Source of the DNA: Mangrovibacterium lignilyticum
GTDB taxonomy: Bacteria; Bacteroidota; Bacteroidia; Bacteroidales; Prolixibacteraceae
Direction: 5' to 3'
DNA: 64,000 nucleotides
Assembly (NCBI RefSeq): GCF_010882175.1
Contig: NZ_WKLH01000002.1
Coordinates: forward strand, 124,001 to 188,000
Below the pieces are notes generated by a model that ran no database searches, was not told where the DNA came from, and was given only the letters and a program-made list of their open reading frames with translations. Shown here in pieces: positions 25,440 to 38,825 of the stretch. The position numbers and the translations under genes were made by a program. The first letter of the stretch is position 1, and every line of letters begins with the position of its first letter.

Positions 25440-25474
25440 TCGTTTTTTAGGGATCAGAGGTTGGGGGAAAAGAT

Positions 25475-25508
25475 ACTTACCGGGTGACTCGAAAGTCACC
25501 CGGTAAGT
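25475..25508. repeat. Perfect 15-bp inverted repeat with 4-nt loop
   Basis: ACTTACCGGGTGACT (25475-25489) is followed by loop CGAA and its exact reverse complement (25494-25508). There is no T-run on either side. It lies 77 bp before the integrase remnant, between the terminator of the xylan cluster and the first cassette gene. It could be a recombination or insertion end, or a protein-binding dyad. Confidence 0.7.
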
Positions 25509-25584
25509 TGCAGCCGGCTGTTTAGAACAAAGCTAAATTGCGGTTTCGGATATAAGTATTTTGTAAAGTTTTGTAAATTGAAGA

Positions 25585-25869
25585 TTGAAACCAGTTAAGA
25601 GCCCGATGCCTGAACAGCGATCCATCAAACTAAGTTATGCTACACACCGGCAACAAGCTGTTGTGCGGATTGATTCGTTAGGGCATTCGTTTGCACCCCA
25701 TTTATTAGAGCAGGGAGTTGATCTTCGGTATATCCAAGAGCTTTTAGGGCATTCATCCTCTAAAACCACGGAGATTTACACCCATGTGAGCACCAGGTCT
25801 CTTGCAAAAATCAAAAGCCCATTAGACTTGATTTTAAAAGATAAAACGCAAAATAACAACGACTTATAG
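25585..25869 (+). pseudogene. Truncated tyrosine-recombinase (integrase) C-terminal fragment
   Basis: The last ~60 codons are plainly the C-terminal catalytic part of a XerC/XerD-like integrase: [23 protein letters not shown], then TTEIYTHV with the catalytic tyrosine, then the usual tail [13 protein letters not shown]. The N-terminal two thirds are absent and the first ~30 codons do not match any integrase. In the box that normally reads LRHSFATHLL the catalytic Arg is replaced by Gly ([10 protein letters not shown]), so even this remnant is inactive. It lies 78 bp before the DUF1963 gene, at the left border of the accessory block, and is a different subfamily from the integrase at 29816-30719. 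Confidence 0.85.
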
Positions 25870-25947
25870 CATGAGCCCTATAAGCGACATATAATACACC
25901 CGTCGAATACACAGATGTTGGTACCAATATAGGAGACAGACACAAAC

Positions 25948-26934
25948 ATGAAACATATGAGTACGATTTTATGGATTAGTTTAACAATTTTAGTTGTTTT
26001 CGGATTACTAAATAGAAATTCACTATTTAAAAAATCATCAAATAACCAGATAAATAATCAAGTTGCGATTGAGTCTGATACTAATGATATTTTGACTTCA
26101 GCTGAACTTAAAAATAGATTCGCAAAATTGGGATTAGGTGAGCATTGGGACAAATTTGAATCTTTGCTTAGAAATGAGATTAGGATAATAACATCTATAT
26201 CAGATTCTGAAAACCTTGAACTTGGACAATCAAAAATTGGTGGGCAACCTGATTTGCCGCTAGAAGTTGATTGGTTTAAAGAGAATAACGATAAACCTCT
26301 TTCATTTATCGCACAGATTAATTTGAGTGAGATTCACCCTTTCGATAAAGATAACTTACTGCCCGATAGAGGGATAATTTATTTCTTTTATTCTGCGGAG
26401 CAAGAGGCATGGGGATTTGACCCAAAAGACAAAGATAAGTTTAAGGTGTATTGTAGCACTGAGACTGATAACTTGACTAGACGTGAGTTTCCAAGTGATT
26501 TGCCTGACTATTCGAGATTTAATGAATGTAAACTGGATATTAAAACAACTGTTGGATTACCAAGCTGGGAGAATGAATTTGTGCAAAAGAATCTATCAGA
26601 AAAAGAAATTGACCAATATCTTAATTTGCCTCAGGATTATGCAATAAATAAAATGCTTGGATACTCAAATAATATCCAAAGTGAAATGGAACTTGAGTGT
26701 CAATTGGTGACAAATGGGTTATATTGTGGAGACCCATCAGGATACAATGACCCAAAAGCAAAAGGACTGGAAAAGGGTACTAAAGACTGGATTTTATTAT
26801 TACAAATAGATTCCGAAGATGAAAAAACAGGAATGATGTGGGGAGATGTTGGTCGTTTGTACTTTTGGATTAAAAAGGAGGATTTAAAGAATAAGGATTA
26901 TAGTAAAACTTGGATGATTTTACAATGTTCATAA
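25948..26934 (+). CDS. DUF1963 (YwqG-like) protein with N-terminal membrane anchor
   Basis: Protein of 328 residues. After an N-terminal TM segment (STILWISLTILVVFGLL) and a low-complexity Asn-rich linker comes a DUF1963 domain, recognisable from SKIGGQPDLPLEVDWF, LSFIAQINLSEI, GIIYFFYSAEQEAWGF, and the end segment GDVGRLYFWIKKEDL. DUF1963 proteins have no established biochemical role; some occur in toxin/immunity or SMI1-like neighbourhoods. The gene looks A+T-richer than the xylan genes to its left, sits alone between an integrase remnant and a long dyad-containing repeat, and therefore looks horizontally acquired. The ATG chosen follows a purine-rich stretch (AGGAGACAGAC). Confidence 0.8.
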   Translation: MKHMSTILWISLTILVVFGLLNRNSLFKKSSNNQINNQVAIESDTNDILTSAELKNRFAKLGLGEHWDKFESLLRNEIRIITSISDSENLELGQSKIGGQPDLPLEVDWFKENNDKPLSFIAQINLSEIHPFDKDNLLPDRGIIYFFYSAEQEAWGFDPKDKDKFKVYCSTETDNLTRREFPSDLPDYSRFNECKLDIKTTVGLPSWENEFVQKNLSEKEIDQYLNLPQDYAINKMLGYSNNIQSEMELECQLVTNGLYCGDPSGYNDPKAKGLEKGTKDWILLLQIDSEDEKTGMMWGDVGRLYFWIKKEDLKNKDYSKTWMILQCS

Positions 26935-26940
26935 AAATAC

Positions 26941-27125
26941 TGGCGCCAACACTAAACATAGGCAATAGCGGTTTCTGTGGGTATTCGGGCGGTAGTGGTT
27001 CTAATTAACTCCGCCAAATCTGCCGATTTGACTATTTAGCTAAGGTGCAGCTTTGGCTACTTGGTAACTTGATCCGAAACCGCTTTAAAGTCCGCTACAT
27101 GCTCATATTATTAACGTTGTGTACC
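26941..27125. repeat. Long dyad-containing intergenic element between single-gene modules
   Basis: This ~185-bp element begins 6 bp after the DUF1963 stop with GGCGCCAACACTAAACATAG and ends in ATTAACGTTGTGTACC, 35 bp before the next gene. It holds an outer inverted repeat (AGCGGTTTC near 26968 with GAAACCGCT near 27078) and an inner hairpin (CAAATC TGCC GATTTG). The end box GTTGTGTACCATATT resembles GTTGGTACCAATAT, which precedes the DUF1963 gene at about 25918. I recall similar long dyads between solitary genes in other Bacteroidota genomes, but cannot search for them here. Confidence 0.55.
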
Positions 27126-27159
27126 ATATTGAAATCAGACAACCAAACAATCTTGATAA

Positions 27160-27813
27160 ATGGAAAAAACCGAAATCAATATAAATCATTTACGACTCTT
27201 TTTTCAAATTGCAGTTATTATCAGTTTAACTTTTTTCTGCCATGTAAAATCAAAAGCTCAAATTGCATTTGTTGCCGGTGGAAACTATTCAAATATTCGA
27301 AGTAATGTATCCCTTGAAAATAAAAAACCAATACTTGGTTACAATTTTGGGGTGTCTGTTCAATACTACCCTTTCAAAAAATTTCAAAATATTTCCTTGC
27401 TCAACGAGCTGGAATTTGTTCAAAAAGGATATCAGCAAGATTTTACGGAGAATTATTCTTTCAGATTTAACTACTTGTCATTCCCCGTATTAATTAATTA
27501 TTCACTTTCTACTCAAATTTCAATCCAAGCAGGTATCGAACTGAGTACTTTAATCTCAACTAATATTGAACAAGGCACAAAAACATACAATAATTTCGAT
27601 ACAGGATTGGCATTGGGAATAATTTGTTTTGGAGAAAAAAGAATTAGTTGTTATTCAAGATTTACCTATGGATTACTTCCGATGCTTAACTATTATCAAA
27701 TTGATGAAATTGGAAATTTCAAAAACGAAATACACGATTTGAAAAACATCTGTTTATCTATTGGAATTAAAGTCAACCTATACAATGAAAAAATTCTACT
27801 TCATAAAAATTAG
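27160..27813 (+). CDS. PorT-like outer-membrane beta-barrel protein
   Basis: Protein of 217 residues with a signal peptide (hydrophobic residues 13-33, cleavage after KSKA). The mature part reads as an eight-stranded barrel of the PorT / outer-membrane beta-barrel type: IAFVAGGNYSNI, LGYNFGVSVQYYPF, ISLLNELEFVQKGY, FNYLSFPVLINYSL, IQAGIELSTL, SCYSRFTYGLLPML, LSIGIKVNLY. Such proteins are common in Bacteroidota and mostly uncharacterised. Its 3' end overlaps the next gene by 29 bp. It looks A+T-rich, unlike the xylan genes, and belongs to the accessory block. Confidence 0.78.
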   Translation: MEKTEININHLRLFFQIAVIISLTFFCHVKSKAQIAFVAGGNYSNIRSNVSLENKKPILGYNFGVSVQYYPFKKFQNISLLNELEFVQKGYQQDFTENYSFRFNYLSFPVLINYSLSTQISIQAGIELSTLISTNIEQGTKTYNNFDTGLALGIICFGEKRISCYSRFTYGLLPMLNYYQIDEIGNFKNEIHDLKNICLSIGIKVNLYNEKILLHKN

Positions 27814-28411
27814 AACGGTATTGGTAATTTTATTCCTCATTCTTAATGGATGTGATGGCATATTTGTACCTGACCCAATTGACCCACGAATTCCCAAATA
27901 TACAGAAGATGGAAATAACGTAGCGGGAGCATTTATAAATGATAATATTTGGAAATCAGTTGTTACGATAGGATTCCCTTATTCTTATAATCAACCATTT
28001 ATTAACGTATGGCAGGAAAATGACAGCCTTGTGTTAAGATTAAACGGAAATACTGCAGGCGAAAGCTCGTCTATTGAATTCCATCTAACAGGTTTGAAGA
28101 TTTCAAAAATTGAAGAGTTAGTAACTCTTGATGGTAATAAAATACAACTTGATGGAATTAAAAATATAGGTTTTTACATAGAGAACTACACTCCATCCAG
28201 TTATGACAACAAAGGAATTGGACAGATTTATTTTAAACATGTCGGTATTCAAGATTCAAATGTTAGTGTCGAAGGACAAACGTCTAAAATCGTAATAATC
28301 TCAGGAACATTTGGTTTCTCGATTAATGATTCGAATGGGGAAATTACAAAAGTTACTTCAGGACGATTTGATTATAGAATTACAGAAAGTACTAATTTCC
28401 AAACAGAATGA
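27785..28411 (+). CDS. Lipoprotein of unknown function
   Basis: Protein of 208 residues counted from the ATG at 27785, which gives a lipoprotein signal (MKKFYFIKIR, hydrophobic core VLVILFLILNGC, lipobox LNGC). A longer frame from a TTG at 27761 would hide the signal and is rejected. The mature part is beta-rich (GNNVAGAFINDNIWKSVVTIGF ... VLRLNGNTAGESSSIEFHLTGL), similar to lipoproteins that carry a single sandwich domain. No family is recognised. It overlaps the preceding barrel gene by 29 bp, so the two are co-translated and probably act together in the outer membrane. A structured repeat with a terminator follows 20 bp after its stop. Confidence 0.75.
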   Translation: MKKFYFIKIRTVLVILFLILNGCDGIFVPDPIDPRIPKYTEDGNNVAGAFINDNIWKSVVTIGFPYSYNQPFINVWQENDSLVLRLNGNTAGESSSIEFHLTGLKISKIEELVTLDGNKIQLDGIKNIGFYIENYTPSSYDNKGIGQIYFKHVGIQDSNVSVEGQTSKIVIISGTFGFSINDSNGEITKVTSGRFDYRITESTNFQTE

Positions 28412-28430
28412 AAAACGGCACACAATAATT

Positions 28431-28571
28431 AAGCGTTCGAGCCGCGCGCAGCGCAGCGCTTGAACGCGGTGTTGACGTAACCCGGGATTGATAGCCGAAA
28501 CAAGTATTATGGGTTTTCCGATGGAAAGTAAGATATGTAGCCTGACCACGATGGTCGGGCATTTTTGTTTT
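28431..28571 (+). repeat. Structured 3' repeat, copy 1 (with intrinsic terminator)
   Basis: First of four related elements. A 5' hairpin pairs GTTCGAGC (28435-28442) with GCTTGAAC (28458-28465); inside it GCGC-GCA-GCGC forms a second stem. The shared stretches GGTGTTGACGT, TTGATAGCCGAAACAAGTAT and ATGGGTTTT follow. It ends in a good intrinsic terminator: GCCTGACCA (28540-28548) pairs with TGGTCGGGC (28552-28560), then ATTTTTGTTTTT. Compared with copy 2 it lacks a 21-nt internal hairpin. It follows the lipoprotein gene and precedes the IS91-like element. Confidence 0.75.
28540..28571 (+). terminator. Intrinsic terminator at the end of repeat copy 1
   Basis: Nine-bp stem GCCTGACCA/TGGTCGGGC with loop CGA, then a T-rich tract. 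It would end transcription of the barrel-lipoprotein pair. Copy 2 of the repeat has the same hairpin at about 30931-30956 with changed but mostly pairing bases. Confidence 0.75.
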
Positions 28572-28694
28572 TGGCAGATACTGCTCCTGTTTTTAACTGT
28601 TTGAGCGAAGGATTTGCTTTCCGAATTTGTGTTTAGGAAACCGGTTTACGGGTTTTACTTCGCTACCGGGCAAAGCTCCGCCAGGCCCCGCCAG

Positions 28695-29819
28695 TCAGGG
28701 CTTTTTTACAAGATTTATCAAATAGTTTAGGATGTCCGTATTCGGAGGTGGCCCGCGTGAGTTAAAGCGCCAGATGGTGACCAGCTTTCCTTTGCGGCAG
28801 GCCGGACATTGCAGACGCATATCGGGGCGTTCGGGAAGTTTGATGCGTCCGAGTTCCTGTTGCAGCAGTTCTACGCAAACTTTTTTGAGCGTACTGCTCA
28901 GGATGCCGTAGTGACGAATGCGGGTAAAGCCGCGTGGCAGGATGTGCAGCGAAAAGCGCCGGATAAACTCTTCTACACTAAGGCTTAGCAGGTATTTGGC
29001 TCCGCCCCGGCGGTAATCTTTAGCCTGGAAAGTCACCTGTTCGTTTTCGATACTTCGGATACGGTGGTTGCTGATGGCAATTTTGTGGGTGTAACGTCCC
29101 AGGTATTCCACCACTTGTTTGGGGCCGAAGAATGGTTGCTTGCAGTACACCACCCAGGGCTTGGCAAACAGTGCTTTGTACAGCCCGGCATCATCGACCT
29201 TGGCAGCTCTTAAATTTTCAACATACTTAGCCCGGAACACTTTACTCATGGCCTTTACGGGGAACAGGAATTTATCCTTTCCCCGGGCTGCTTTCCACTT
29301 GCCGGAGGTGTTGATTCCGCCACCGGGAACAATGCAGTGCAGGTGCGGATGAAGCGAAAGGTTCTGCCCCCAGGTATGCAGTATGGCAATCATGCCCGGT
29401 GCGCCACCGATGAACTTCGGATTTGCAGCGAACGCTTTTACCACTTGCCAGGCAGTTTGAAACAACAAGCTATACACCAGTTTGGGGCGATGCAATGCCA
29501 GTCGGTTCAAGTCATCGGGCAAGGTAAATACCAGGTGATAGTATGAAGTTCGGAACAGTTCCTTTTCCCGGGCCTGCATCCACTGTTCGCGTTTGTGTCC
29601 CTGGCATTTGGGACAATGCCGGTTGCGGCAGCTGTTGTAACTGATATGCAGTTTCCGGCACTTGGTATTATCGCACACATCGACGTGCCCGCCCAAAGCA
29701 GCTGTGCGGCAAACCGACAAAGCCTGCAGAGTTCGCAGTTGCTAGCTACTGCGGCAAAGCTGCTCAAGCCGATGCGCTTGATTATGCAATACATCGGCCA
29801 CTTCAAAAGCCGGCTTCAT
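28695..29819 (-). pseudogene. IS91-family transposase, interrupted by an amber stop at codon 26
   Basis: Rolling-circle (HUH, Y2) transposase. Reading from the ATG at 29819-29817, the frame gives MKPAFEVADVLHNQAHRLEQ and then a TAG at 29744-29742; without that stop it would be about 374 residues. The frame continues intact to 28695. After the stop come the zinc-binding segment (CRTAALGGHVDVCDNTKC ... SYNSCRNRHCPKCQ), the HUH motif HPHLHC, the paired tyrosines of YLGRYTHK and a C-terminal CPACRKGK. A TTG at 29720 could restart translation and would keep all catalytic motifs. The ATG overlaps the stop of the recombinase gene (ATGA), which shows that 29819 was the original start. Either recently inactivated or N-terminally shortened. 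Confidence 0.85.
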
Positions 29820-30719
29820 GACTTGGGGTATAAGCGGTCGAGCGGGCTGAAAGCTTTATCGCGCCCCAGCTGCGCGATATGCAGGTACATCAGGGTGGTA
29901 TGGATGTCGACATGACCGAGCAGGTCTTTCAAAGTCATGATGTCCATGCCCATTTCCAGCAGATGGGTAGCGTAAGTGTGGCGAAGCGTGTGCGAAGTTA
30001 CCCGCTTCTGAATCCCGGCCCGTTTCACAGCCTGGGTAATGACCCACTGCACACCGGTTTCAGAAAATTGCTGTAGCTGTCCGGTATTAGTTTTTCCGTT
30101 AAAGAGCCACACATAAGGAGGCTCAGCCTGCAGATAGGCGCGCAGTCCACGCATCAAGTGCCCGCCAAGCGGCACATAACGGTCTTTTCGGCCTTTGCCT
30201 TCGCGAACATGCAACTGCGAACGGTCCAGGTCAACATCGGCCAGTTTGATGTTCAGCAGTTCGTGGCGACGTAGTCCGCAGCCATACAGCAGGCCCAGGA
30301 TCAACCGGTGCCGAAGCAAGGCCGGTGCTCTGAGCAGTCGCCTGACTTCCTGTTGACTCAATACAACGGGCAGCTTCTTCGGAAGCTTCATTTTTGGCAG
30401 GAACACCTGTTTTTGCGGCATCCCCATGGCCCGGTAAGCAAAACGAAGCCCGTAAACAGTGTGCTTAAAGTAGCTTTCGGAAGGTGTGCGGCTTTGCGTT
30501 TTGACCAGGTGGAGGTAGTCCAGCACCTGATCTTCCTCAAGATCCAGTGGATTGCATCGAAAGTGAAGGGCCATCGTGGCCAGGCAACGGGAATAGTTGT
30601 CAAGGGTACTCTTACTTTTGCCTAAAAGCTCAACATGGCGTTGCAGCTTTTCATAAACTTGCTTAAATTCAGGGAGTGAAAAACAAGCTTGCTCAATTAA
30701 CGTGGTGCTTTTTTTTCAT
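29816..30719 (-). CDS. Tyrosine recombinase of the IS91-type element, start out of frame at an A8 tract
   Basis: XerC/D-like site-specific recombinase. All catalytic positions are visible: Arg in GCGLRRHELL, Lys in GKGRKDRYVPL, H-x-x-R in HTLRHTYATHLL, His in LGHVDIHTT and Tyr in LMYLHI. The in-frame ATG at 30574 yields only 252 residues and cuts off half of the DNA-binding SAM-like domain. Upstream of it the same frame stays open to 30715 and reads a convincing N-terminus (FSLPEFKQVYEKLQRHVELL, then STLDNYSRCLATMALHF). The natural ATG at 30719-30717 is followed by eight A's; with seven A's it would join this frame and give exactly 300 residues. So translation needs slippage, or the gene is disabled by one base, or the run is a sequencing error. 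Confidence 0.8.
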
Positions 30720-30796
30720 AATCAACAGATTTTATTGATGAACACTAAAGGTACTGGAGCCTGAGCACTTTAGCTACCTTTAGGTTTCGTTCAACA

Positions 30797-30957
30797 ATTA
30801 AGTGTTCGGCCAGTGCGCAGCACAGTGGCTGAACCGGGTGTTGACGTCCTGTCCGGCGGCCAGACAGGAACCCTGGATTGATAGCTGAAACAAGTATGAT
30901 GGGTTTTTCAGATCGGAGATAAGCTGTTTTGTCTGACCATGCTGGTTTGGCTTTTTC
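30797..30957 (+). repeat. Structured 3' repeat, copy 2 (longest copy)
   Basis: Full-length copy. 5' hairpin: GTTCGGCCA (30804-30812) pairs with TGGCTGAAC (30826-30834), with inner stem GTGC-GCA-GCAC. Then GGTGTTGACGT, an added 21-nt hairpin (CCTGTC/GACAGG), TTGATAGCTGAAACAAGTAT, ATGGGTTTTT, and a terminal hairpin GTCTGACCA/TGGTTTGGC followed by CTTTTTC. The first ~80 bp are almost identical to copy 3 at 32786. Unlike the other copies it runs straight into the 3' end of a group II intron. No coding gene lies just upstream, only the IS91-type element. Confidence 0.75.
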
Positions 30958-30978
30958 ATAGAATGACCGATATTAGAT

Positions 30979-31050
30979 GAGCCGGATGACGGGAGACTGT
31001 CAAGTCCGGTTCTGTGAGAGGCTTGGGGGGAAATTCCCCTTGCCGACTCG
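30979..31050 (+). ncRNA. Group II intron 3' end (domains V and VI), intron otherwise missing
   Basis: GAGCCGGATGACGGGAGACT (30979-30998) followed by GTCAAGTCCGGTTC folds into the catalytic domain V hairpin of bacterial group II introns: GAGCCGGA pairs with TCCGGTTC, with the usual AGC-type base and a GAGA-like loop. Domain VI follows as GGCTTGGGGGG/TTCCCCTTGCC and the segment ends GACTC near 31050. No intron-encoded reverse transcriptase is present and no complete domain I can be assigned, so this is a truncated or ORF-less intron. Beyond it GTGCGTGACACAATG leads into the next gene. Confidence 0.75.
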
Positions 31051-31110
31051 ATGCCGAACCGTTCGCGGCAACCATGTGCGTGACACAATGAATATTATAA
31101 AATTAAACGC

Positions 31111-32766
31111 ATGAAAATTAACTTACTCCTTTTTATTTGTTCATTTTGGTTTCTTTCAAAAGCATATTCGCAAGAAGTAGTATCACTTCATCCACTTTTT
31201 ATAGAGCAGGACGCTGTGTTAATACCTGAAATCGAAGGTTCATGGTGCATTGAGGGGATAGACACGATTTCAATTCAAAAAGCTGGAGATAATTTCTATT
31301 TATTGAAATATGGTAGTGAAGCAAACCCATCAACATTTGAAGCCGTCTTTTTAAAAATCAAGGATCAAATATATCTGGACCTTAACGGTGTATTCCCGGA
31401 TACATTAGGGGATGAATATTATAGAAATACCTTCCTTTCGGTTCATTCGTTATACAAAATCGAAATTTGTAACGACACTTTGCAGCTTTTTGAACCCAGG
31501 TATGCCTGGTTTTATAATTATACGATGCAAAATGATTCACCGCTTAAATATGAATGGGTGAAAAATGGCATGTTGTTAACCTTCAAAACGGATGAATTAA
31601 AATCATTTTTTGCAGAACAGAACAATAACCAGGAGCTGTTTGACAATCCTACTTCATTTATAAATAGTCGTTCTGATAATAAGGGGAAAGAAAATAGTAT
31701 GCTAGATGGATCAACTGTTAAATCATCCAGCGGTATCTCCCAAACATGTATTCCTCAATTTCCTTTTAAAGATGGCTGGTTTGGTGGTGATGGTGATGTG
31801 TCTGTTCCAATAAATGCAACGACCACTTTATTTATTTTTAGTGATACTTGGGTAGGAACAAAAAATCAGCAGAGCAGAATGGAACCGGGTATGAAAATGG
31901 TCAACAATTCTGTCGCTGTTGAAACTTGTTTGCCAAATGGAGAAACCGATGTGAAATATTACTGGAGAAATAAATATTCTGAGCATCCAAAACCCATTTT
32001 TGAAAGCTTTACCAATCGATATATTTATTGGGTGCCACAGGCATTTATGATGAATGACAATCTCTATGTACTATTGGAAAAGGTTGGGCCCCGGTTAGCT
32101 GCACCTCCAAAGGCAACTTTTAATTTTTCCCTTTTAGGATACACGCTGGCAAAAATAAGCAATCCTGACGCTGCACCGGATAAATGGGAAATCGAGTATA
32201 CTCCTTTACCAGACTTTGGATATCCATCCAAGAGTATAGGAGCCTATGTAATATTGGATGGCTACTTCTATTTCTTCGTAAGCCGCCATGACAAGGCTCA
32301 GGTGCTGGTCAGGAAACGAGTCGATGTCTTTGATGATCCTCAAAAACCCTACGAATATTTTGCCTTGAACAAGAAATGGAACGAAGGTTTAAACACAAAT
32401 GATATGGATACGCTAATCAATGGATTTAGAACCACTACAGTTAACTATCATCCGGAAATGAAACAATGGGTAATGATTTGTGATATTAGACCTTGGGACA
32501 ATAAAATAAAAATGCGAACGGCACCTGAATTAACCGGTCCATGGTCGGATGAAATAGATATTTACGAAATCCCCGAAGTAACGCCTGGCAATCCTTCTTA
32601 TACCGAATCAAATTTTTGTTACCTGCCACGGGAATGCATACAAAACTATGATACTGCCCGCCATCAAATGCTCATTACATACGATATCAACAATCCGGAT
32701 TTTTCCATAATAAATGCAAATCCTAAAATTTATACTCCAAAGGTAATTACCATTCAATTAAAGTAG
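31111..32766 (+). CDS. Exported DUF4185-like five-bladed propeller protein of unknown function
   Basis: Protein of 551 residues with a signal peptide (MKINLLLFICSFWFLSKAYSQ). Residues about 25-175 form an unassigned beta-rich domain (EIEGSWCIEGIDTISIQKAG). From about residue 215 the sequence resembles DUF4185-type propellers related to the GH43/GH62/GH68 fold: DGWFGGDGDVSVPI, LFIFSDTWVG, NRYIYWVPQAFMMNDNLYVLLE, KSIGAYVILDGYFYFFVSRHD, VNYHPEMKQWVMICDIRP and ELTGPWSDEIDIYEIPE. Catalytic acids were not identified, so enzymatic activity is open. The gene is bracketed by two nearly identical ~90-bp direct repeats and looks like a single-gene mobile module. Base composition is A+T-richer than the hydrolase genes nearby. 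Confidence 0.7.
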   Translation: MKINLLLFICSFWFLSKAYSQEVVSLHPLFIEQDAVLIPEIEGSWCIEGIDTISIQKAGDNFYLLKYGSEANPSTFEAVFLKIKDQIYLDLNGVFPDTLGDEYYRNTFLSVHSLYKIEICNDTLQLFEPRYAWFYNYTMQNDSPLKYEWVKNGMLLTFKTDELKSFFAEQNNNQELFDNPTSFINSRSDNKGKENSMLDGSTVKSSSGISQTCIPQFPFKDGWFGGDGDVSVPINATTTLFIFSDTWVGTKNQQSRMEPGMKMVNNSVAVETCLPNGETDVKYYWRNKYSEHPKPIFESFTNRYIYWVPQAFMMNDNLYVLLEKVGPRLAAPPKATFNFSLLGYTLAKISNPDAAPDKWEIEYTPLPDFGYPSKSIGAYVILDGYFYFFVSRHDKAQVLVRKRVDVFDDPQKPYEYFALNKKWNEGLNTNDMDTLINGFRTTTVNYHPEMKQWVMICDIRPWDNKIKMRTAPELTGPWSDEIDIYEIPEVTPGNPSYTESNFCYLPRECIQNYDTARHQMLITYDINNPDFSIINANPKIYTPKVITIQLK

Positions 32767-32785
32767 AATGGTAGCCGCTAACAAA

Positions 32786-32877
32786 TAAGTGTTCGGCCAG
32801 TGCGCAGCACAGTGGCTGAACCAGGTGTTGACGTCCTGTCCGGCGGCCAGACAGGAACCCGCGATTGATAGCCGAAC
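32786..32877 (+). repeat. Structured 3' repeat, copy 3
   Basis: Starts 19 bp after the DUF4185-like gene. From TAAGTGTTCGG (32786) through the 21-nt CCTGTC/GACAGG hairpin to GATTGATAGC it matches copy 2 with only a handful of differences over ~90 bp, then diverges at about 32877; the terminal terminator hairpin is missing. The 32878-33069 stretch after it shows no feature. Confidence 0.75.
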
Positions 32878-33069
32878 CGTTATCTCGGAAAATTCAAGCT
32901 GTTGGAATTATTTCGTTTCTCAACACTTTCATTCTATCAGCATTTTAATAATTTTGGAACTCGCTTGCCCGTAAACAAGAAGGTACATTCGCATCCGGAC
33001 ACAAATAAGAGCGACATCGATACCTGTCTGTTCGATGAAAGGCTTCTATAATATTAAAATTTATACCCA

Positions 33070-35196
33070 ATGAAATTAGTGACACGATTACTTTGTTTGG
33101 CGATTTTTTCCATTAGTATTCTCAGTTGTCAGCAGCAAAAGGAACTGTTTGTTGATCTCGACGGTACGGTTCTCAGCAAGGCTGATGTCAGTGGCAGCGA
33201 TGCGCCCTATCTACAGATTCAGAACTCCAAATTATCCAAAGGAGTGCTTGTGTTGTATCCGGGCAGTGGCGCCGACAATGGATCTATGTCAACGGTATTT
33301 CAACAATTGGGTTTTTCGGTTGCCAGCTTGAAAGGTGACAGCCTGAAACCTGCCGATGCGATCAAAGCTTTTCGCTTGATCAAGTCAGGGGTAAATCTCA
33401 ATTTAAAAACAGATCACACGACTTTGGTTGGTTATTCCAACGGCGCAAAATTGGCCGCTTTAACGGAATACGAATTAGATGAAAACGAGCGTCCGGACGA
33501 TTTGATTTTGATTAACCCAGCCAATTTCGATGAGACAACACCGGGGATTGTCTTTCCGGTAGTTAATCCTCCGCTGACAACAAAAACAAAATTATTATGC
33601 ATTGCCGATACCTTGGTGCTGGATCAAACAGCGTTAAAAGCGGCAAGTGAATACACCAAAACATGGATTGGATACGACGGCGTGGCCTTCCGGCAGGCAA
33701 TTGGAGACGCGCAAGACGGAGCTTCCAGAAACAACGGGTTGATTGCTGTTTTGACTTCCTTTTTGAACGGAGAACTTGTTTTACCAACGGTAGCTGAAAA
33801 TCCAGCGGCTGTTCCGGTTGAAGGTTATTCGCCCAAACGCCATTCTGAGAAGGTCGCGCTGGTTAAAAATCACAAATACGATTTGCTGTTTGTCGGCAAC
33901 TCGATCACCAACAATTTTGAGAAACCGGCATATCAGCCAGTCTGGAACAAATACTATGGTTCTCGCAATGCTGTCAACCTGGGCTTTTCCGGTTATCGCA
34001 CCGAAAACATCATCTGGAATATTGAAAACGGGGAGCTGGAGAACCAGTCGCCGAAAGTGATTGTGCTGGAGATTGGCACCAACAATATCGATGAAAAGAA
34101 TTACCCGACACGCCATACGGCAGGGCAGTTGGCTGGAGGTATTGAAAAGATTGTGAGCCTGCTTCGTGAAAAATGTCCCGAGGCGAAAATCATCGTGCTT
34201 CGTTGCTTCCCGGGATGTTATGGCGGACCAAACCCAACATCGCATCGCCGGATATTGGAACGGGCTTCTGATTTGGTTTCTCATTTGGCGGATGGCAAGC
34301 ACGTTTTTTACTGCGATGTCAACCATGTTTTTCTGAATATGGATGGCTCGATCAATCACGACATGTTGGGTGATTGGTTACATCCCACGCCAGCTGGAGC
34401 CGAGGCCTGGGCCCAGGCGATGGAACCGCTGCTTTCGGAATTGATGGGAGACAAATCGCAAGACGATCAAAAACCCCGGAATACAGCGATCATTCCGGCT
34501 TCGAAACTCGAGCAGGACAGTTACGACTGGTGGGTGCGACACAACGATGTACTAGCGGTCAAAGATTCATTGAATCCGGAGATTGTTTTAATTGGAAACT
34601 CCATCACGCATTTCTGGGGAGGCCAGTATCCGCCGCTGAAATATGCCGACGGAACTTCACGGAAACCGAACGGCCCAAACTCGTGGAAAGCGACTTTTGG
34701 CGGTCATCGGGTGTTAAACCTGGGATTTGGATGGGACCGTACGCAGAACGTGTTGTGGCGACTGGATCATGGTGAGCTTGACGGGCTCGATCCCAAACTG
34801 GTTGTGATACACATTGGCACCAACAATACCAGCGATACAAAGAATGCACGCATAAACACGGCTCCAGAGATCGCAGAAGGCGTTAAAGCGGTTTGCATGC
34901 GTGTTCGGTCGAAAGTACCACGAGCCAAAATCGTTTTAATGCAAATTATGCCACGCGAAGAAATGCCCGATAACCCACGCCGGCTGATGATCAACGAGAC
35001 GAACAAAATTCTTCAGCAGTTTGCCAGCGAAAATGAGATCACCTTGCTGGATATTAGCTCACAAATGCTGACTCCGGAGGAAATTCTAACGAAGGAAGTT
35101 GCCGGCGATTTCTGCCATCCAACCGATGCGGGCTATCAAATCTGGGGAGACGCTTTGCGGTCCTACATCGACGGCAAAAGCCAACAAATTAAATAA
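33070..35196 (+). CDS. Triple hydrolase lipoprotein: alpha/beta-hydrolase + two SGNH (GDSL) esterase domains
   Basis: Lipoprotein of 708 residues (lipobox ILSC, Cys20) with three hydrolase-like domains. Residues ~45-240 are an alpha/beta-hydrolase with nucleophile elbow GYSNG (Ser123); no His occurs between 160 and 255, so this domain may be inactive. Residues ~265-460 are an SGNH esterase: GNSIT (Ser278), GTNN (336-339), DWLHPT (435-440). Residues ~485-700 repeat the same fold: GNSIT (Ser511), GTNN (583-586), DFCHPT (680-685). Both SGNH domains keep the Ser, Gly/Asn and Asp-His sites. Such domains serve as carbohydrate acetylesterases, so deacetylation of xylan or another hemicellulose is the likely job. 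It stands alone between accessory modules. Confidence 0.88.
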   Translation: MKLVTRLLCLAIFSISILSCQQQKELFVDLDGTVLSKADVSGSDAPYLQIQNSKLSKGVLVLYPGSGADNGSMSTVFQQLGFSVASLKGDSLKPADAIKAFRLIKSGVNLNLKTDHTTLVGYSNGAKLAALTEYELDENERPDDLILINPANFDETTPGIVFPVVNPPLTTKTKLLCIADTLVLDQTALKAASEYTKTWIGYDGVAFRQAIGDAQDGASRNNGLIAVLTSFLNGELVLPTVAENPAAVPVEGYSPKRHSEKVALVKNHKYDLLFVGNSITNNFEKPAYQPVWNKYYGSRNAVNLGFSGYRTENIIWNIENGELENQSPKVIVLEIGTNNIDEKNYPTRHTAGQLAGGIEKIVSLLREKCPEAKIIVLRCFPGCYGGPNPTSHRRILERASDLVSHLADGKHVFYCDVNHVFLNMDGSINHDMLGDWLHPTPAGAEAWAQAMEPLLSELMGDKSQDDQKPRNTAIIPASKLEQDSYDWWVRHNDVLAVKDSLNPEIVLIGNSITHFWGGQYPPLKYADGTSRKPNGPNSWKATFGGHRVLNLGFGWDRTQNVLWRLDHGELDGLDPKLVVIHIGTNNTSDTKNARINTAPEIAEGVKAVCMRVRSKVPRAKIVLMQIMPREEMPDNPRRLMINETNKILQQFASENEITLLDISSQMLTPEEILTKEVAGDFCHPTDAGYQIWGDALRSYIDGKSQQIK

Positions 35197-35581
35197 GCCC
35201 GGCCACCCATCTGCGAAGGGCCCCACTGGTATCGTGGTATCTTTGCGATTCCCGAGGCTCACTTCGTTCAGGGGCGAGTTTTCCGGCTCCTGGTTGCAAA
35301 TACGGATAATTATTCTTTTATATCCTTTAGCCGGACGGGCTGTTACTTTTTGCCTGCAGTCGCAGAAAAGCTTGTCAGGCTTTGACTGATAACCAAAGAA
35401 GACCGCGCTGCCTGAAAAATTAGCTAAAAACCAGGGTGAATCTAAAATCAAAAAACTCCTCCTTGTAGTCCGTCGTACCTATGGACTACCGTTCGTCAAA
35501 CAGTTTTTCAAGCAAGTAAAAGGGCCATTGAAATTTCACTAAAAAGCATTAATTTACTAAGTACATTAATGCCATTTCGCT
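35197..35581. other. Unassigned intergenic stretch
   Basis: No supported gene in 385 bp. Two opposing short open frames (about 35099-35389 + and 35086-35451 -) overlap the end of the esterase gene and resemble nothing known. A 7-bp inverted repeat (GTAGTCC near 35466, GGACTAC near 35484) is the only visible structure. The last 60 bp are A+T-rich and probably hold the promoter of the next gene, though no TAnnTTTG box is found. Confidence 0.4.
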
Positions 35582-36121
35582 ATGAAAAGGATACTTACTC
35601 AATTTTCGCTGAAAAAGCGTGTTCTGATGTTTGTAGTCGTTATGGTGCTGGGGGTTTCCGTTCTGCAGGGACAGCCCGCAAGCTACGGTGATATCGGTGT
35701 CGGTGCCGGATTAAGTTATGGTGGACTGGGAACACGGCTCACCTACAAGCCCATCGAACAATTGGGCCTGTTTGGTTCTCTTGGGTATAATTTCGATGCT
35801 CTGGGATATAACGTTGGGGCGCAGGTGCAGGTGCTAAGCCAAAAAAAGCTGAGCGCATACCTTACCGGTATGTACGGATACAATGGTGTATTGATTGTTG
35901 ACGCGATCGGGATGAAAACCAAAACAACTTATTTTGGTTTTTCGACCGGTGTTGGTGCCGCATTCAAACTAAAGGAAAAATCATTCCTGTGCGCCGAAAT
36001 ACTGGTGCCATTTCGTCCTCAGGTCTTCAACGACGCGGTAGATGATCTTAAGTTGATCGGTTACGATATTAAAGAGCCGCTGCCGATCGCCATTTGTATT
36101 GGTTATCATTTCAAATTTTAA
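35582..36121 (+). CDS. Small outer-membrane beta-barrel protein, unknown function
   Basis: Protein of 179 residues with a long N-region and hydrophobic signal (KKRVLMFVVVMVLGVSVLQGQ). The mature part consists of alternating, glycine- and aromatic-rich strands (DIGVGAGLSYGGLGTRLTYK, LGLFGSLGYNFD, AYLTGMYGYNG, YFGFSTGVGAAFKL) and ends IGYHFKF, typical of eight-stranded outer-membrane barrels. No specific family is recognised. Ten bp separate its stop from the start of the FISUMP lipoprotein gene, so the two form an operon. Confidence 0.75.
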   Translation: MKRILTQFSLKKRVLMFVVVMVLGVSVLQGQPASYGDIGVGAGLSYGGLGTRLTYKPIEQLGLFGSLGYNFDALGYNVGAQVQVLSQKKLSAYLTGMYGYNGVLIVDAIGMKTKTTYFGFSTGVGAAFKLKEKSFLCAEILVPFRPQVFNDAVDDLKLIGYDIKEPLPIAICIGYHFKF

Positions 36122-36131
36122 ATTGAAGAAA

Positions 36132-37712
36132 ATGAATCCAAGACTGAACCGCAATAAAAGCAGACTTAATCAAGGACTTGTGGTGCTTGTGCTGCTTTGC
36201 CAAAGTGTTTTGCTGAATTCCTGTTTCGAGAATCCGACCCCGCCGGAACTCACAACCCGGCCAATAACGGTTGTTGATCTCTATACGATAACGAGCGGCG
36301 GAACGATAACCGACGACGGAGGCTCGGAGATTTTCCAGAAAGGGATTTGCGTAAGTCTCGACAATACGCCAACAATACAGGATTTTTTCTACTCGATTGA
36401 TGGTGTTGGCAATGCTGATTTCGTATCGACTGTAGCGCTGGAGCCGAACACCACTTTTTACATTTGTGCTTACGCTGTTAATGGCGCGGGCATCGGCTAC
36501 GGAAACATTTTATCCTTCACACAGTCTTATGTTGAAGTCGTTATCATGGATTTTGGTGATATTACCGGCAATGAAGCCTTTATGCGCGGGCGACTGGCAA
36601 CGAGTCAAACCGTTACGTCACGGGGAGCCTGCTGGGGCACTTCACCCAATCCGACCATCAACGACAGTAAGACCGAAGCAGGCAGTGGCTCCGGAATTTT
36701 CGAAACTACCCTTACCGGACTAGAACCTGGAACCAGGTATTATACGCGCGCATATGCCGTTGCGAACTCCGAGGTTTTTTACAGCGACAACTACGAATTC
36801 ACAACGCTGGGATATCCGCTACTGACAACCAAAGAAATCAGCAACGCAGGCACGTTCATCATTTCAACCGGCGGCGATATTCTTTCACAGGGGCTCATTC
36901 TAAATGCCGGGGTTTGCTGGAGCACTTCACCTTGGCCAACCATTGCTGACAGCAAAACCGACGACCAACTCGTTCTGAACTCATCCACCGGCAATTATAA
37001 TACATTCAACAGCGACCCATACGGACTGTTACCGGCTACTACGTACTATATAAGAAGTTACGCCACCAATATTGCCGGTACCGGATATGGAAACGAAATT
37101 GCCATTACGATGCCCGATGCAACGGTTTACGATTTGGACGGGAATCCCTACTCGGCTGTAACGATTGGCACACAGACCTGGCTGGTCGAAAATCTCAGGA
37201 CCACCAAATATGCCAATGGCGATCAGATCCCCAATGTGGTGAATACGAATGAATGGCAGAATGCCACATCCGGTGCCTGGTGCTACTATGAAAATCTGGC
37301 CGATTATGCCGTTCCATACGGCAAACTGTATAACTGGTATGCTGTAACCGACGCCCGTAATGTTTGTCCCGCAGGATGGCATGTTCCGACCGACGCAGAA
37401 TGGCAAACACTCATTACTTTCGTGGGCGGCAGTGATGTTGCCGGCAATGCCTTGAAGGAAACAGGAACTGCACACTGGCATCCCAATGATTTGGCAACGA
37501 ACAGCAGCGGGTTCACGGCATTGCCCGGAGGAGCTCAAAGTGCATTTATCGGAACCGGATATCCCGCAAACAGCCTGGGAATGTTTTGGACTGCAACACC
37601 TGTTGATGGCGAAAATGCTTACGGTTATTATTTATTCGATGGCTATCAATCCATCAATCAGCAGGGCTATGTGAAACAAACAGGGCTTTCGGTGCGATGT
37701 GTCAAAGATTAA
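36132..37712 (+). CDS. FISUMP-domain surface lipoprotein with fibronectin-III-like repeats
   Basis: Lipoprotein of 526 residues from the ATG at 36132 (lipobox LLNSC); an earlier TTG at 36099 would overlap the previous gene and bury the signal. About residues 30-325 contain three ~90-residue fibronectin-III-like repeats, each ending in a T-x-Y-x-x-x-Y-A-x-N signature (TFYICAYAVNGAG, TRYYTRAYAVANS, TYYIRSYATNIAG). The C-terminal ~200 residues are a FISUMP (Fibrobacter succinogenes major paralogous) domain: VTIGTQTWLVENLRTTKY, WCYYEN, GKLYNWYAV, VCPAGWHVPTDAEW, GFTALPGG and LSVRCVKD. FISUMP proteins are cell-surface proteins without proven function, frequent in fibre degraders. Operon partner of the barrel gene upstream. 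Confidence 0.88.
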   Translation: MNPRLNRNKSRLNQGLVVLVLLCQSVLLNSCFENPTPPELTTRPITVVDLYTITSGGTITDDGGSEIFQKGICVSLDNTPTIQDFFYSIDGVGNADFVSTVALEPNTTFYICAYAVNGAGIGYGNILSFTQSYVEVVIMDFGDITGNEAFMRGRLATSQTVTSRGACWGTSPNPTINDSKTEAGSGSGIFETTLTGLEPGTRYYTRAYAVANSEVFYSDNYEFTTLGYPLLTTKEISNAGTFIISTGGDILSQGLILNAGVCWSTSPWPTIADSKTDDQLVLNSSTGNYNTFNSDPYGLLPATTYYIRSYATNIAGTGYGNEIAITMPDATVYDLDGNPYSAVTIGTQTWLVENLRTTKYANGDQIPNVVNTNEWQNATSGAWCYYENLADYAVPYGKLYNWYAVTDARNVCPAGWHVPTDAEWQTLITFVGGSDVAGNALKETGTAHWHPNDLATNSSGFTALPGGAQSAFIGTGYPANSLGMFWTATPVDGENAYGYYLFDGYQSINQQGYVKQTGLSVRCVKD

Positions 37713-38295
37713 CAGTCGATATACACCGGATTGCCTGCGCCAATAAGCCATTCGCGAGGGGAGACCTGTCTGCATGAACCTGACGAATGACAAACGAAGT
37801 CCCAAACTTACCGCAAATTTGCCCCTTACCGCGTTTTGCCCACCGGCAATTGGTTCCCCGGCGGCTGGGGAGAGCATTGCTCATCGGCAATTGGTTGCCC
37901 GACGGATGGGGAGGGCATTGCTCACGGGCCAAGGACCCGGCAAAACCAATCGCCCCGAATCAACCATTTGTTGCTTTCGACCTGACAGCCAATGGGCTGC
38001 GCGGACATTTGTTGAACCTTTATTAATAAGTTAAATGCAGCAATCGCCTGCTGTTTGGGTTGAATATGCTAAATTGACCGTCGAAATAAAAACCGCTAAC
38101 CAAGCCCCCAGGCCCGGATGAACAGTAATTCATTTCAGGCAGGAAGTCAGTCCTTGAAATTGTTGAGAAATCCGATGAAACGACCGATTGTAAAGGCTTT
38201 CGGGGTTTGGTGATATAAGGGAAATAAGCGGCGGGTGTTATATACATAGCGGTTGAACGTTAGCACACATATGGTAACAACAAACATTTTTACCA
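37713..38295. other. Intergenic stretch with tandem repeat and cassette-type leader
   Basis: No supported gene in 583 bp. It holds the 41-bp tandem repeat at 37844-37925; overlapping open frames on both strands across the repeat are low-complexity artefacts. Near the right end, GCGGTTGAACGTTAGCACAC (from about 38248) resembles the AACGTTGTGTACC box that precedes the barrel gene at 27160 and leads into the single gene at 38296. Confidence 0.45.
37844..37925. repeat. Tandem 41-bp repeat, two units
   Basis: Two imperfect units begin at 37844 and 37885, each CGGCAATTGGTT, then a C/G-rich stretch with GGATGGGGAG or GGCTGGGGAG, then GCATTGCTCA. GCCCGACGG and CCCCGGCGG mark the difference. It is neither coding nor terminator-like and its role is unknown. 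Confidence 0.65.
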
Positions 38296-38760
38296 ATGAA
38301 TAAAGAAATATCAAATGTATTATTTAGCGTATTGACAGAGTGCCGAAACGATGGATTTGTAGTTCTAACCAAGGATTCTCCAGTTGAGCTAAGAGAAGCA
38401 ATCAATGAAGCAAAAGCAAGAAATTGGATTTGTAGTAAAAATCCATATAGCTACGAATTGACGCCAACGGGAATAGATATTCTTGACTTTAGTTCTCTTG
38501 ATGAGTATTTGGAACATCAGAGAATTATACACGAATCAAAGAAAGTAATACAACAGCCAGTAATAAATGCTGTGAATGTTTTGTATGGAGAAAATCATGG
38601 GACTATTAACCAATCATCATCCCATGATAAAATCACAAAAATAAATTCAGTAAAAAGACATCGGAATAAACTTTTTAAAATACTGAAGACGATTATTATA
38701 GGGATTATTATATGGTTGATTACCCAGTATATTCTTATGCCATTTTTTTCAGGAAATTAA
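38296..38760 (+). CDS. Hypothetical protein: winged-helix-like N-terminus and C-terminal membrane anchor
   Basis: Protein of 154 residues, A+T-rich gene, no recognised family. Residues 1-65 look like a small winged-helix fold (REAINEAKARNWICSKNPYSYELTPTGIDIL, the last part being a typical wing and helix). Residues ~85-115 contain INAVNVLYGENHGTINQSSS, a Gly/Asn-rich stretch reminiscent of short beta-repeat spacers seen in small membrane-anchored stress or defence proteins. One TM helix ends the protein (IIIGIIIWLITQYILMPFF). It stands alone between a cassette-like leader and structured repeat copy 4, so it looks like another single-gene accessory module. Function not known. Confidence 0.7.
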   Translation: MNKEISNVLFSVLTECRNDGFVVLTKDSPVELREAINEAKARNWICSKNPYSYELTPTGIDILDFSSLDEYLEHQRIIHESKKVIQQPVINAVNVLYGENHGTINQSSSHDKITKINSVKRHRNKLFKILKTIIIGIIIWLITQYILMPFFSGN

Positions 38761-38775
38761 AAAAACAACCGCAAC

Positions 38776-38825
38776 TAAGCGTTCGGCTAGTGCGCAGCAC
38801 AATGGCTGAACCCGGGACTGATAGC
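38776..38825 (+). repeat. Structured 3' repeat, copy 4 (shortest)
   Basis: Starts 15 bp after the hypothetical gene. TAAGCGTTCGG, then a hairpin GTTCGGCTA (38781-38789) with TGGCTGAAC (38803-38811) and inner stem GTGC-GCA-GCAC. Position 9 of the left arm is changed so that a G.T wobble replaces a G-C pair, keeping the fold. Then CCCGGGACTGATAGC; the GGTGTTGACGT segment and the rest are missing. Confidence 0.7.

Follow-up and report, generated by a model that had tools for sequence, protein, structure and literature searches.

Repeats of a Mangrovibacterium lignilyticum locus as probable terminal hairpins of an IS91-like transposon inserted into attC-like sites of a Bacteroidota integron

Background

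Some members of the IS91/ISCR rolling-circle transposons carry an extra tyrosine recombinase, and IS91 follows a GTTC/CTTG target rule. Insertion sequences that use attC as target are also known, namely the IS1111-attC elements. The locus described here lies in a 64,000-nucleotide (nt) stretch of the Mangrovibacterium lignilyticum genome (assembly GCF_010882175.1, contig NZ_WKLH01000002.1, positions 124,001 to 188,000), called the window, where a hairpin-forming repeat is found in four copies. Very probably, each repeat is a hairpin terminus (presumed oriIS) of a rolling-circle transposon of IS91-like type, whose insertion point is the junction between the R'' box and the remaining part of attC-like sites in a Bacteroidota integron. 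At the level of sequence, this reading is carried by the contiguity of the hairpin with the 3' side of the transposase gene, its covariation, its contact with AA[CT] where cassettes end, the private pairing of R' and R'' boxes, a deleted integrase gene and, in relatives, the succession of integrase, attI-like junction and array.

As described in the available text of PMC7923331, group IIC-attC introns enter the attC bottom strand opposite to the genes, at TTGT/T, with one same-direction exception. The IS1111-attC transposase is of the DEDD type, according to the accessible part of PMC11187229, unlike that of the IS91-like element of the window.

Fold and distribution of the repeat

Loci, genomes and contigs are designated below by L-, G- and C-numbers, respectively; the own genome is the source of the window, and a W end is a copy of the hairpin. 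An earlier note on this DNA had claimed four copies of a structured repeat with compensatory base changes, and the copies, their stems and the compensatory changes were all borne out, with model matches at 28430-28471, 30799-30840, 32786-32827 and 38776-38817, in agreement with the direct repeats. No fifth copy was found in the window by model search (E up to 1). The covariation that the note expected of a larger alignment is also present, as 8 of the 12 hairpin pairs are changed on both sides and 96.4% of the pair cells are standard among 32 hairpins, 26 of them distinct, from 13 genomes when L086 is counted as G126. The covariation score reaches 0.408 versus 0.185 after shuffling, a value attained by none of 500 shuffles. 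When the partner is slid, pairing falls to 37.4% or less, a control that leans in favour of the fold because the fold was first read on these same sequences.

Further copies occur in relatives, being detected by DNA in 14 of 140 family genomes and by the hairpin model in 13 of 393 order genomes, the own genome included in both counts. The own genome bears 14 W ends (model search, E up to 0.001), spread over several arrays, at the start of contig C9 (L009), on C10 (L010), at two places of C8 (L011, L012) and in the window. Copies 2 and 3 do have the extra 21-nt hairpin, and copies 1 and 2 the terminator-like one, which lies within the left end of the transposon; copy 4 lacks the stretch 3' of the hairpin that the other copies have. 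The short palindromes right behind the hairpin differ among W copies, as seen for CCTGTCCGGCGGCCAGACAGG and TCCCGATAGCTATCGGGA (window 30850-30870 and 32836-32857; L009, L010). A single W hairpin is common to two convergent genes (L175:1497-1538), flanked in both directions by AATTAAG and by an R''-like box.

The earlier note had attributed the repeats to selection on RNA or single-stranded DNA. Selection on a folded single strand is upheld by the larger alignment, the form most likely to be selected being single-stranded DNA at a transposon terminus and not a discrete transcript. A structured RNA of unrelated genes, such as a terminator or a regulatory element kept for transcription, would account for the terminator-like hairpin followed by a T-run in copies 1 and 2, and covariation cannot separate RNA from DNA. 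However, the sole Rfam match above threshold in the window is RF00029, and the hairpin tracks the transposase across genomes and abuts AA[CT]; a structured RNA is a very unlikely explanation. The note's reading also omitted the transposon, the cassettes, the integrase remnant and the group II intron part, which are considered below.

The IS91-like element

The left end of the window element was set by comparison with L204, L179, L219 and L226, and its right end, GTTCAAC/A, is common to the window, L179, L219 and L086, therefore delimiting the element given in Table 1, whose length equals the spacing of copies 1 and 2. The transposase reaches 401 bits against NF033538 (cut-off 125) and 197 bits against PF04986 (Y2_Tnp, HUH), with a partial match to the zinc-binding profile PF14319 starting from profile position 27. 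It thus combines the zinc-binding and HUH domains of the IS91 family, and the element has definite boundaries, one of them marked by a hairpin and by a short target motif that differs from the GTTC/CTTG rule. The activity of this transposase is only presumed.

Related transposases have the hairpin on their 3' side in L204 (69% over a 59-amino-acid end), L179 (61%), L219 (59%) and L226 (67%), the last of which unites hairpin, related transposase and recombinase. Next to these transposases, the sequence of the hairpin is changed and its fold is kept. Elsewhere, IS91-like transposases occur in tandem downstream of the integrase, 2,477 nt apart in L215 and L297 (both G039) and about 2,500 nt apart in G114:C1:437762-460604, as if cassettes had multiplied.

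Probable insertion into attC-like sites

Gene units of the own genome open with GTT, and their opening sequence recurs in reverse complement at the far end, the two forming R' and R'' boxes. In 25 such units, R' and R'' match at 145 of 175 variable positions, compared with a mean of 63.5 and a maximum of 101 in 100,000 shuffles. The units were chosen by eye from attC junctions and misfits were kept; the unit holding the IS and the initial cassette of L010 were left out. Two of the 25 match at 0/7 and 1/7, the former being the unit of copy 4, whose gene lies between the boxes at 38259 and 38766. Private pairing of R boxes inside the cassette and, in the attC-like sites described below, covarying L arms, as expected of an integron array, are observed, but the integron consensus RYYYAAC/GTTRRRY is not, mainly GTT[AG] and [CT]AA[CT] being kept. 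A free search for R-box chains in the own genome gave no chain longer than the longest of 100 shuffles, the search being noisy.

The trinucleotide AA[CT] stands directly before the W end in 49 of 53 distinct sites (58 matches minus 4 duplicates, 3 partial and 2 weak ones, plus the 4 window copies), and in the own genome it belongs to the R'' box of attC-like sites. W ends mostly lie a short way 3' of a stop codon, as judged by eye and uncounted. The subterminal TGTTGAC can pair fully with the AACA of such flanks, with AATA if one T.G pair is admitted, and almost fully with the TTCAACA of the far end, and it may serve as a guide in targeting. In L086 an attC-like remainder follows directly 3' of the far end of the element, and in L169 a solitary W end is flanked by an R''-like box and an attC-like remainder.

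The same position could also be explained if the hairpin were a short type of attC, with GTTCGGC/GCTGAAC arms as L boxes between R'' and a TGTT that starts R', spread together with cassettes, the IS91-like gene being a mere neighbouring cassette. Indeed, the hairpin stands exactly at the attC start, behind private R'' boxes, the flank AACA can pair with the TGTT behind the hairpin, and copy 3 ends with GCCGAACCGTT, like a complete site. However, the TGTTGAC behind the hairpin stays the same across several families and does not vary with the next cassette, which lowers this explanation, and in several genomes the sequence continues into IS91 genes. The ordinary attC-like sites of these genomes are a different structure of about 118 nt, and in L169 the hairpin separates an R''-like box from an attC-like remainder. 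A short attC is accordingly an unlikely identity for the repeat, and an end of an IS91-like element is preferred.

attC-like sites and cassettes

The attC-like sites measure 116-120 nt between boxes in 44 sites, the search having allowed 105-135 nt. All 11 predicted pairs show two-sided changes and 95.7% of the cells pair, the structure having been predicted on the same alignment that was tested; the covariation score is 0.613 versus 0.176 shuffled (0/500), and slid controls give 44.5% or less. Further types of pairs were not above shuffles in these sites (107/500). Six of 50 sites were dropped as chain artefacts, out of register or short (L281:9666, L286:8890, L286:13053, L287:8961, L295:10198 and L044:654). 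Within the phylum, to which the search was confined, the attC-like model found matches in 130 of 140 family genomes at an E-value limit of 1e-3, with no more than 23 candidates scored in any genome; the 4 genomes of genus g9 gave none. At a limit of 1e-6, with no more than 16 candidates scored, it matched 75 of 198 phylum genomes. The E-values are rough, and weak matches may be chance. Judging from these distributions, integrons with an atypical integrase seem to be common across Bacteroidota.

As read from its sequence, the window is a decayed cassette array headed by a deleted integrase gene (Table 1). Sites of the own genome come as plain attC-like sites, with the start of a full group II intron, with a W end, or with a W end fused to intron domains V and VI (D5-D6). 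Several observations were made beside these arrays: a homologous non-coding stretch with short repeats lies upstream of two integrase-less cassette arrays (L010:5980-6720 and L011, minus strand, 10500-10020), a DUF805b RNA motif match below threshold (32.1 bits, gathering 35.6) stands right before a cassette gene at L009:3644-3676, and a 41-nt unit occurs in two tandem copies at 37836-37917 of the window.

Table 1. Features of the window with their coordinates, strand and basis
Feature	Position	Strand	Basis or remark
Integrase gene remnant, middle deleted	25453-25846	+	5' part 25453-25675, 3' end 25719-25846
Cassette 1	25917-26950	+	R' 25917-25926, DUF1963 gene 25948-26934, R'' 26941-26950; boxes 5/7
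attC-like site without insert	26951-27115	+	Read between R'' and next R'
Cassette 2	27116-28426	+	R' 27116-27125, genes 27160-27813 and 27761-28411, R'' 28417-28426; boxes 6/7
Repeat copy 1, transposon left-end hairpin (presumed oriIS), subterminal TGTTGAC	28427-28471	+	
IS91-like element, 2,369 bp, genes on minus strand	28427-30795	-	End comparison with relatives
IS91-family transposase, open frame without first part of zinc-binding domain	28695-29720	-	NF033538, PF04986, PF14319
Tyrosine recombinase of the element	29816-30715	-	PF00589 132 bits; below cut-off for TIGR02249 (179.7) and NF040815 (188.7)
Repeat copy 2, solitary left end adjoining the right end of the element	30796-30840	+	
Domains V-VI of a group II intron, fused to copy 2	30977-31052	+	RF00029, 62.4 bits
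Cassette 4	31061-32782	+	R' 31061-31070, gene 31111-32766, R'' 32773-32782; boxes 5/7
Repeat copy 3, solitary left end	32783-32827	+	
Repeat copy 4, solitary shortened left end; flank not ending in AA[CT]	38773-38817	+	

Group II introns

In 9 of 12 loci examined, the intron starts with GTGTGCC within an attC-like site and stops 7-9 nt short of GTT, in gene direction, and insertion opposite to the cassettes at TTGT/T, as in group IIC-attC introns, was not the pattern found. Full group II introns of such placement, relatives of that of the own genome, are seen in L074, L075, L077, L079, L080, L082, L083, L085 and L087.

Since 8 of the 12 RF00029 matches of the own genome sit behind a W end, copy 2 among them, it might be asked whether the repeats are nothing but relics of group II introns. 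However, the remaining four matches lie at contig ends or behind a reverse transcriptase, the full intron of the own genome starts with GTGTGCCGAGAAGC, in other types of attC, and copies 1, 3 and 4 have no D5 match. An origin from introns only was dropped as extremely unlikely, as the hairpin is found elsewhere with IS91 genes and no intron.

Integrase and attI-like junction

By blastn, the integrase remnant of the window corresponds to L208:12822-13042 (89.7%) and L208:14010-14141 (72.8%), and the open reading frame 25585-25869 matches the C-terminus of Phage_integrase; 48 nt separate the gene from the first R'. A 386-amino-acid tyrosine recombinase, of which the window gene is a version with the middle deleted, is encoded at the end of contig C12; behind it come, in this order, GTTAACGGTT, a gene, AACCGTTAAC, an attC-like site and the beginning of the intron. 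This type of integrase has 24 residues where the Vibrio cholerae IntI (2a3v) has 66, with both sides aligning, and its catalytic part aligns in one piece to XerA- and XerC-like chains. Between the GLR block and HxLRH, the spacing is 91-92 in 77/77 measured loci (found in 77 of 79 loci, some of them present twice) versus 134 counted in 2a3v. The additional domain of canonical IntI is therefore lacking, and the scores stay below cut-off for TIGR02249 (190 bits, cut-off 265) and for NF040815. This integrase or shorter relatives are found in 89 of 140 family genomes (E up to 1e-40) and 56 of 395 phylum genomes (E up to 1e-60), and integron surveys may have missed it because the additional domain that defines IntI is absent. 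Its activity as a recombinase is likewise presumed.

In relatives, the integrase gene is followed by an attI-like junction next to the array, as expected of an integron. A first R' with a partner lies 80-125 nt 3' of the integrase in 15 of 20 relatives (L281-L300), compared with 62 of 400 shuffles; L292 and L294 have the junction and no partner. Over the phylum, it lies 60-130 nt 3' of the integrase in 19 of 25 loci (shuffles 16/250), with a junction that often reads TATAAAC[AG]A/GTT, three of these positives (L312, L323 and L328) looking like chance. In the family, 6 of 16 loci were positive (shuffles 12/160), four of the 16 (L254, L256, L265 and L274) repeating loci of the 20 relatives above. 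In total, 25 of 29 phylum and 16 of 29 family loci could be scored, the rest having too little downstream DNA or no match.

Chains of cassettes with gaps of 110-130 nt reach 12 in L295 and 7 in L296, the 20 downstream stretches giving 4, 3, 4, 5, 2, 3, 4, 5, 2, 3, 1, 2, 3, 1, 12, 7, 1, 1, 3 and 2, and the upstream ones 2, 1, 1, 1, 2, 1, 1, 1, 1, 2, 1, 2, 1, 1, 1, 2, 3, 1, 1 and 1. As 200 shuffles and the upstream stretches reach 3 at most, 7 of the 20 downstream stretches exceed every control and 13 do not. A search with wider gaps was noisy, its chains overlapping shuffles in many loci.

Proposed mode of action

If the repeats are the ends of an IS91-like element, the HUH transposase would recognize the folded single-stranded terminus, and the subterminal TGTTGA(C) would pair with the target AA[CT]A and with TTCAACA at the other end. 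Solitary ends would result from truncated transposition or deletion, their varied length being compatible with one-ended rolling-circle transposition, and copy 2 may derive from a deletion between the element end and a group II intron in one site. The integrase, in turn, would recombine these attC sites.

Several points weigh against this account. The far ends of the solitary copies are left without explanation, and fusions of W end and D5-D6 with one kind of junction precede different attC 3' ends, which is also unexplained. Four of the 53 W flanks lack AA[CT], copy 4 included, and the strict RYYYAA[CT] is seen in just 6 of 53. In L179, the right flank falls within a gene and not in an attC site. 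Finally, 5 of 20 integrase loci of relatives and 6 of 25 of the phylum have no first R' with a partner.

As a broader proposal, it seems fairly probable that Bacteroidota harbour a second, phylum-wide class of integrons, in which an integrase has gained attC recombination without the IntI additional domain, with an attI like TATAAAC[AG]A/GTT and with its own parasites, the top-strand group II introns and the attC-targeting IS91-like elements. Whole cassettes may also be mobilized by the transposase as one-ended units, because the cassette R'' (AAC/A) resembles the far end of the element (TTCAAC/A).

Comparison with known systems

According to the available parts of the respective sources, integrons are almost absent from Bacteroidetes in the IntegronFinder 2 analysis, with one complete integron, in Salinibacter ruber (PMC9024848), and Bacteroidota are named among the phyla with integrons (PMC8618304). 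The intI survey of PMC2426708, as far as its accessible text goes, selected for the IntI additional domain and would miss the integrases described here. A literature search, whose coverage excluded most subscription journals, gave no description of such Bacteroidota integrons or of an attC-targeting IS91 element. If these integrons work, a gene-shuffling system has been overlooked in a large phylum, and the need for the additional domain in attC recombination becomes directly testable. The covarying transposon end moreover gives access to the way in which IS91-like elements recognize folded single-stranded DNA and select their targets.

Like the IntI/attC integrons, for instance the Vibrio superintegron with its VCR sites, this system comprises an integrase, an attI-like junction, single-gene cassettes with private R'/R'' pairing and attC-like sites some 118 nt long whose L arms covary. 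Unlike them, the integrase has no additional domain and is extended at its N-terminus by about 100 residues, integrase and cassettes run in one direction, and the R boxes conserve little past GTT[AG]. Compared with IS91 and ISCR, the element shares a transposase with zinc-binding and Y2_Tnp domains and a hairpin and short target motif at one end, but it targets AA[CT]/A at R'' boxes, its end hairpin covaries strongly and it sits inside cassette arrays; as an insertion sequence that targets attC, it resembles the IS1111-attC elements. The introns also lie within attC sites, like the group IIC-attC introns as these are described in the available text, but are inserted in gene direction, with 7-9 nt left ahead of GTT in 9 of the 12 loci.

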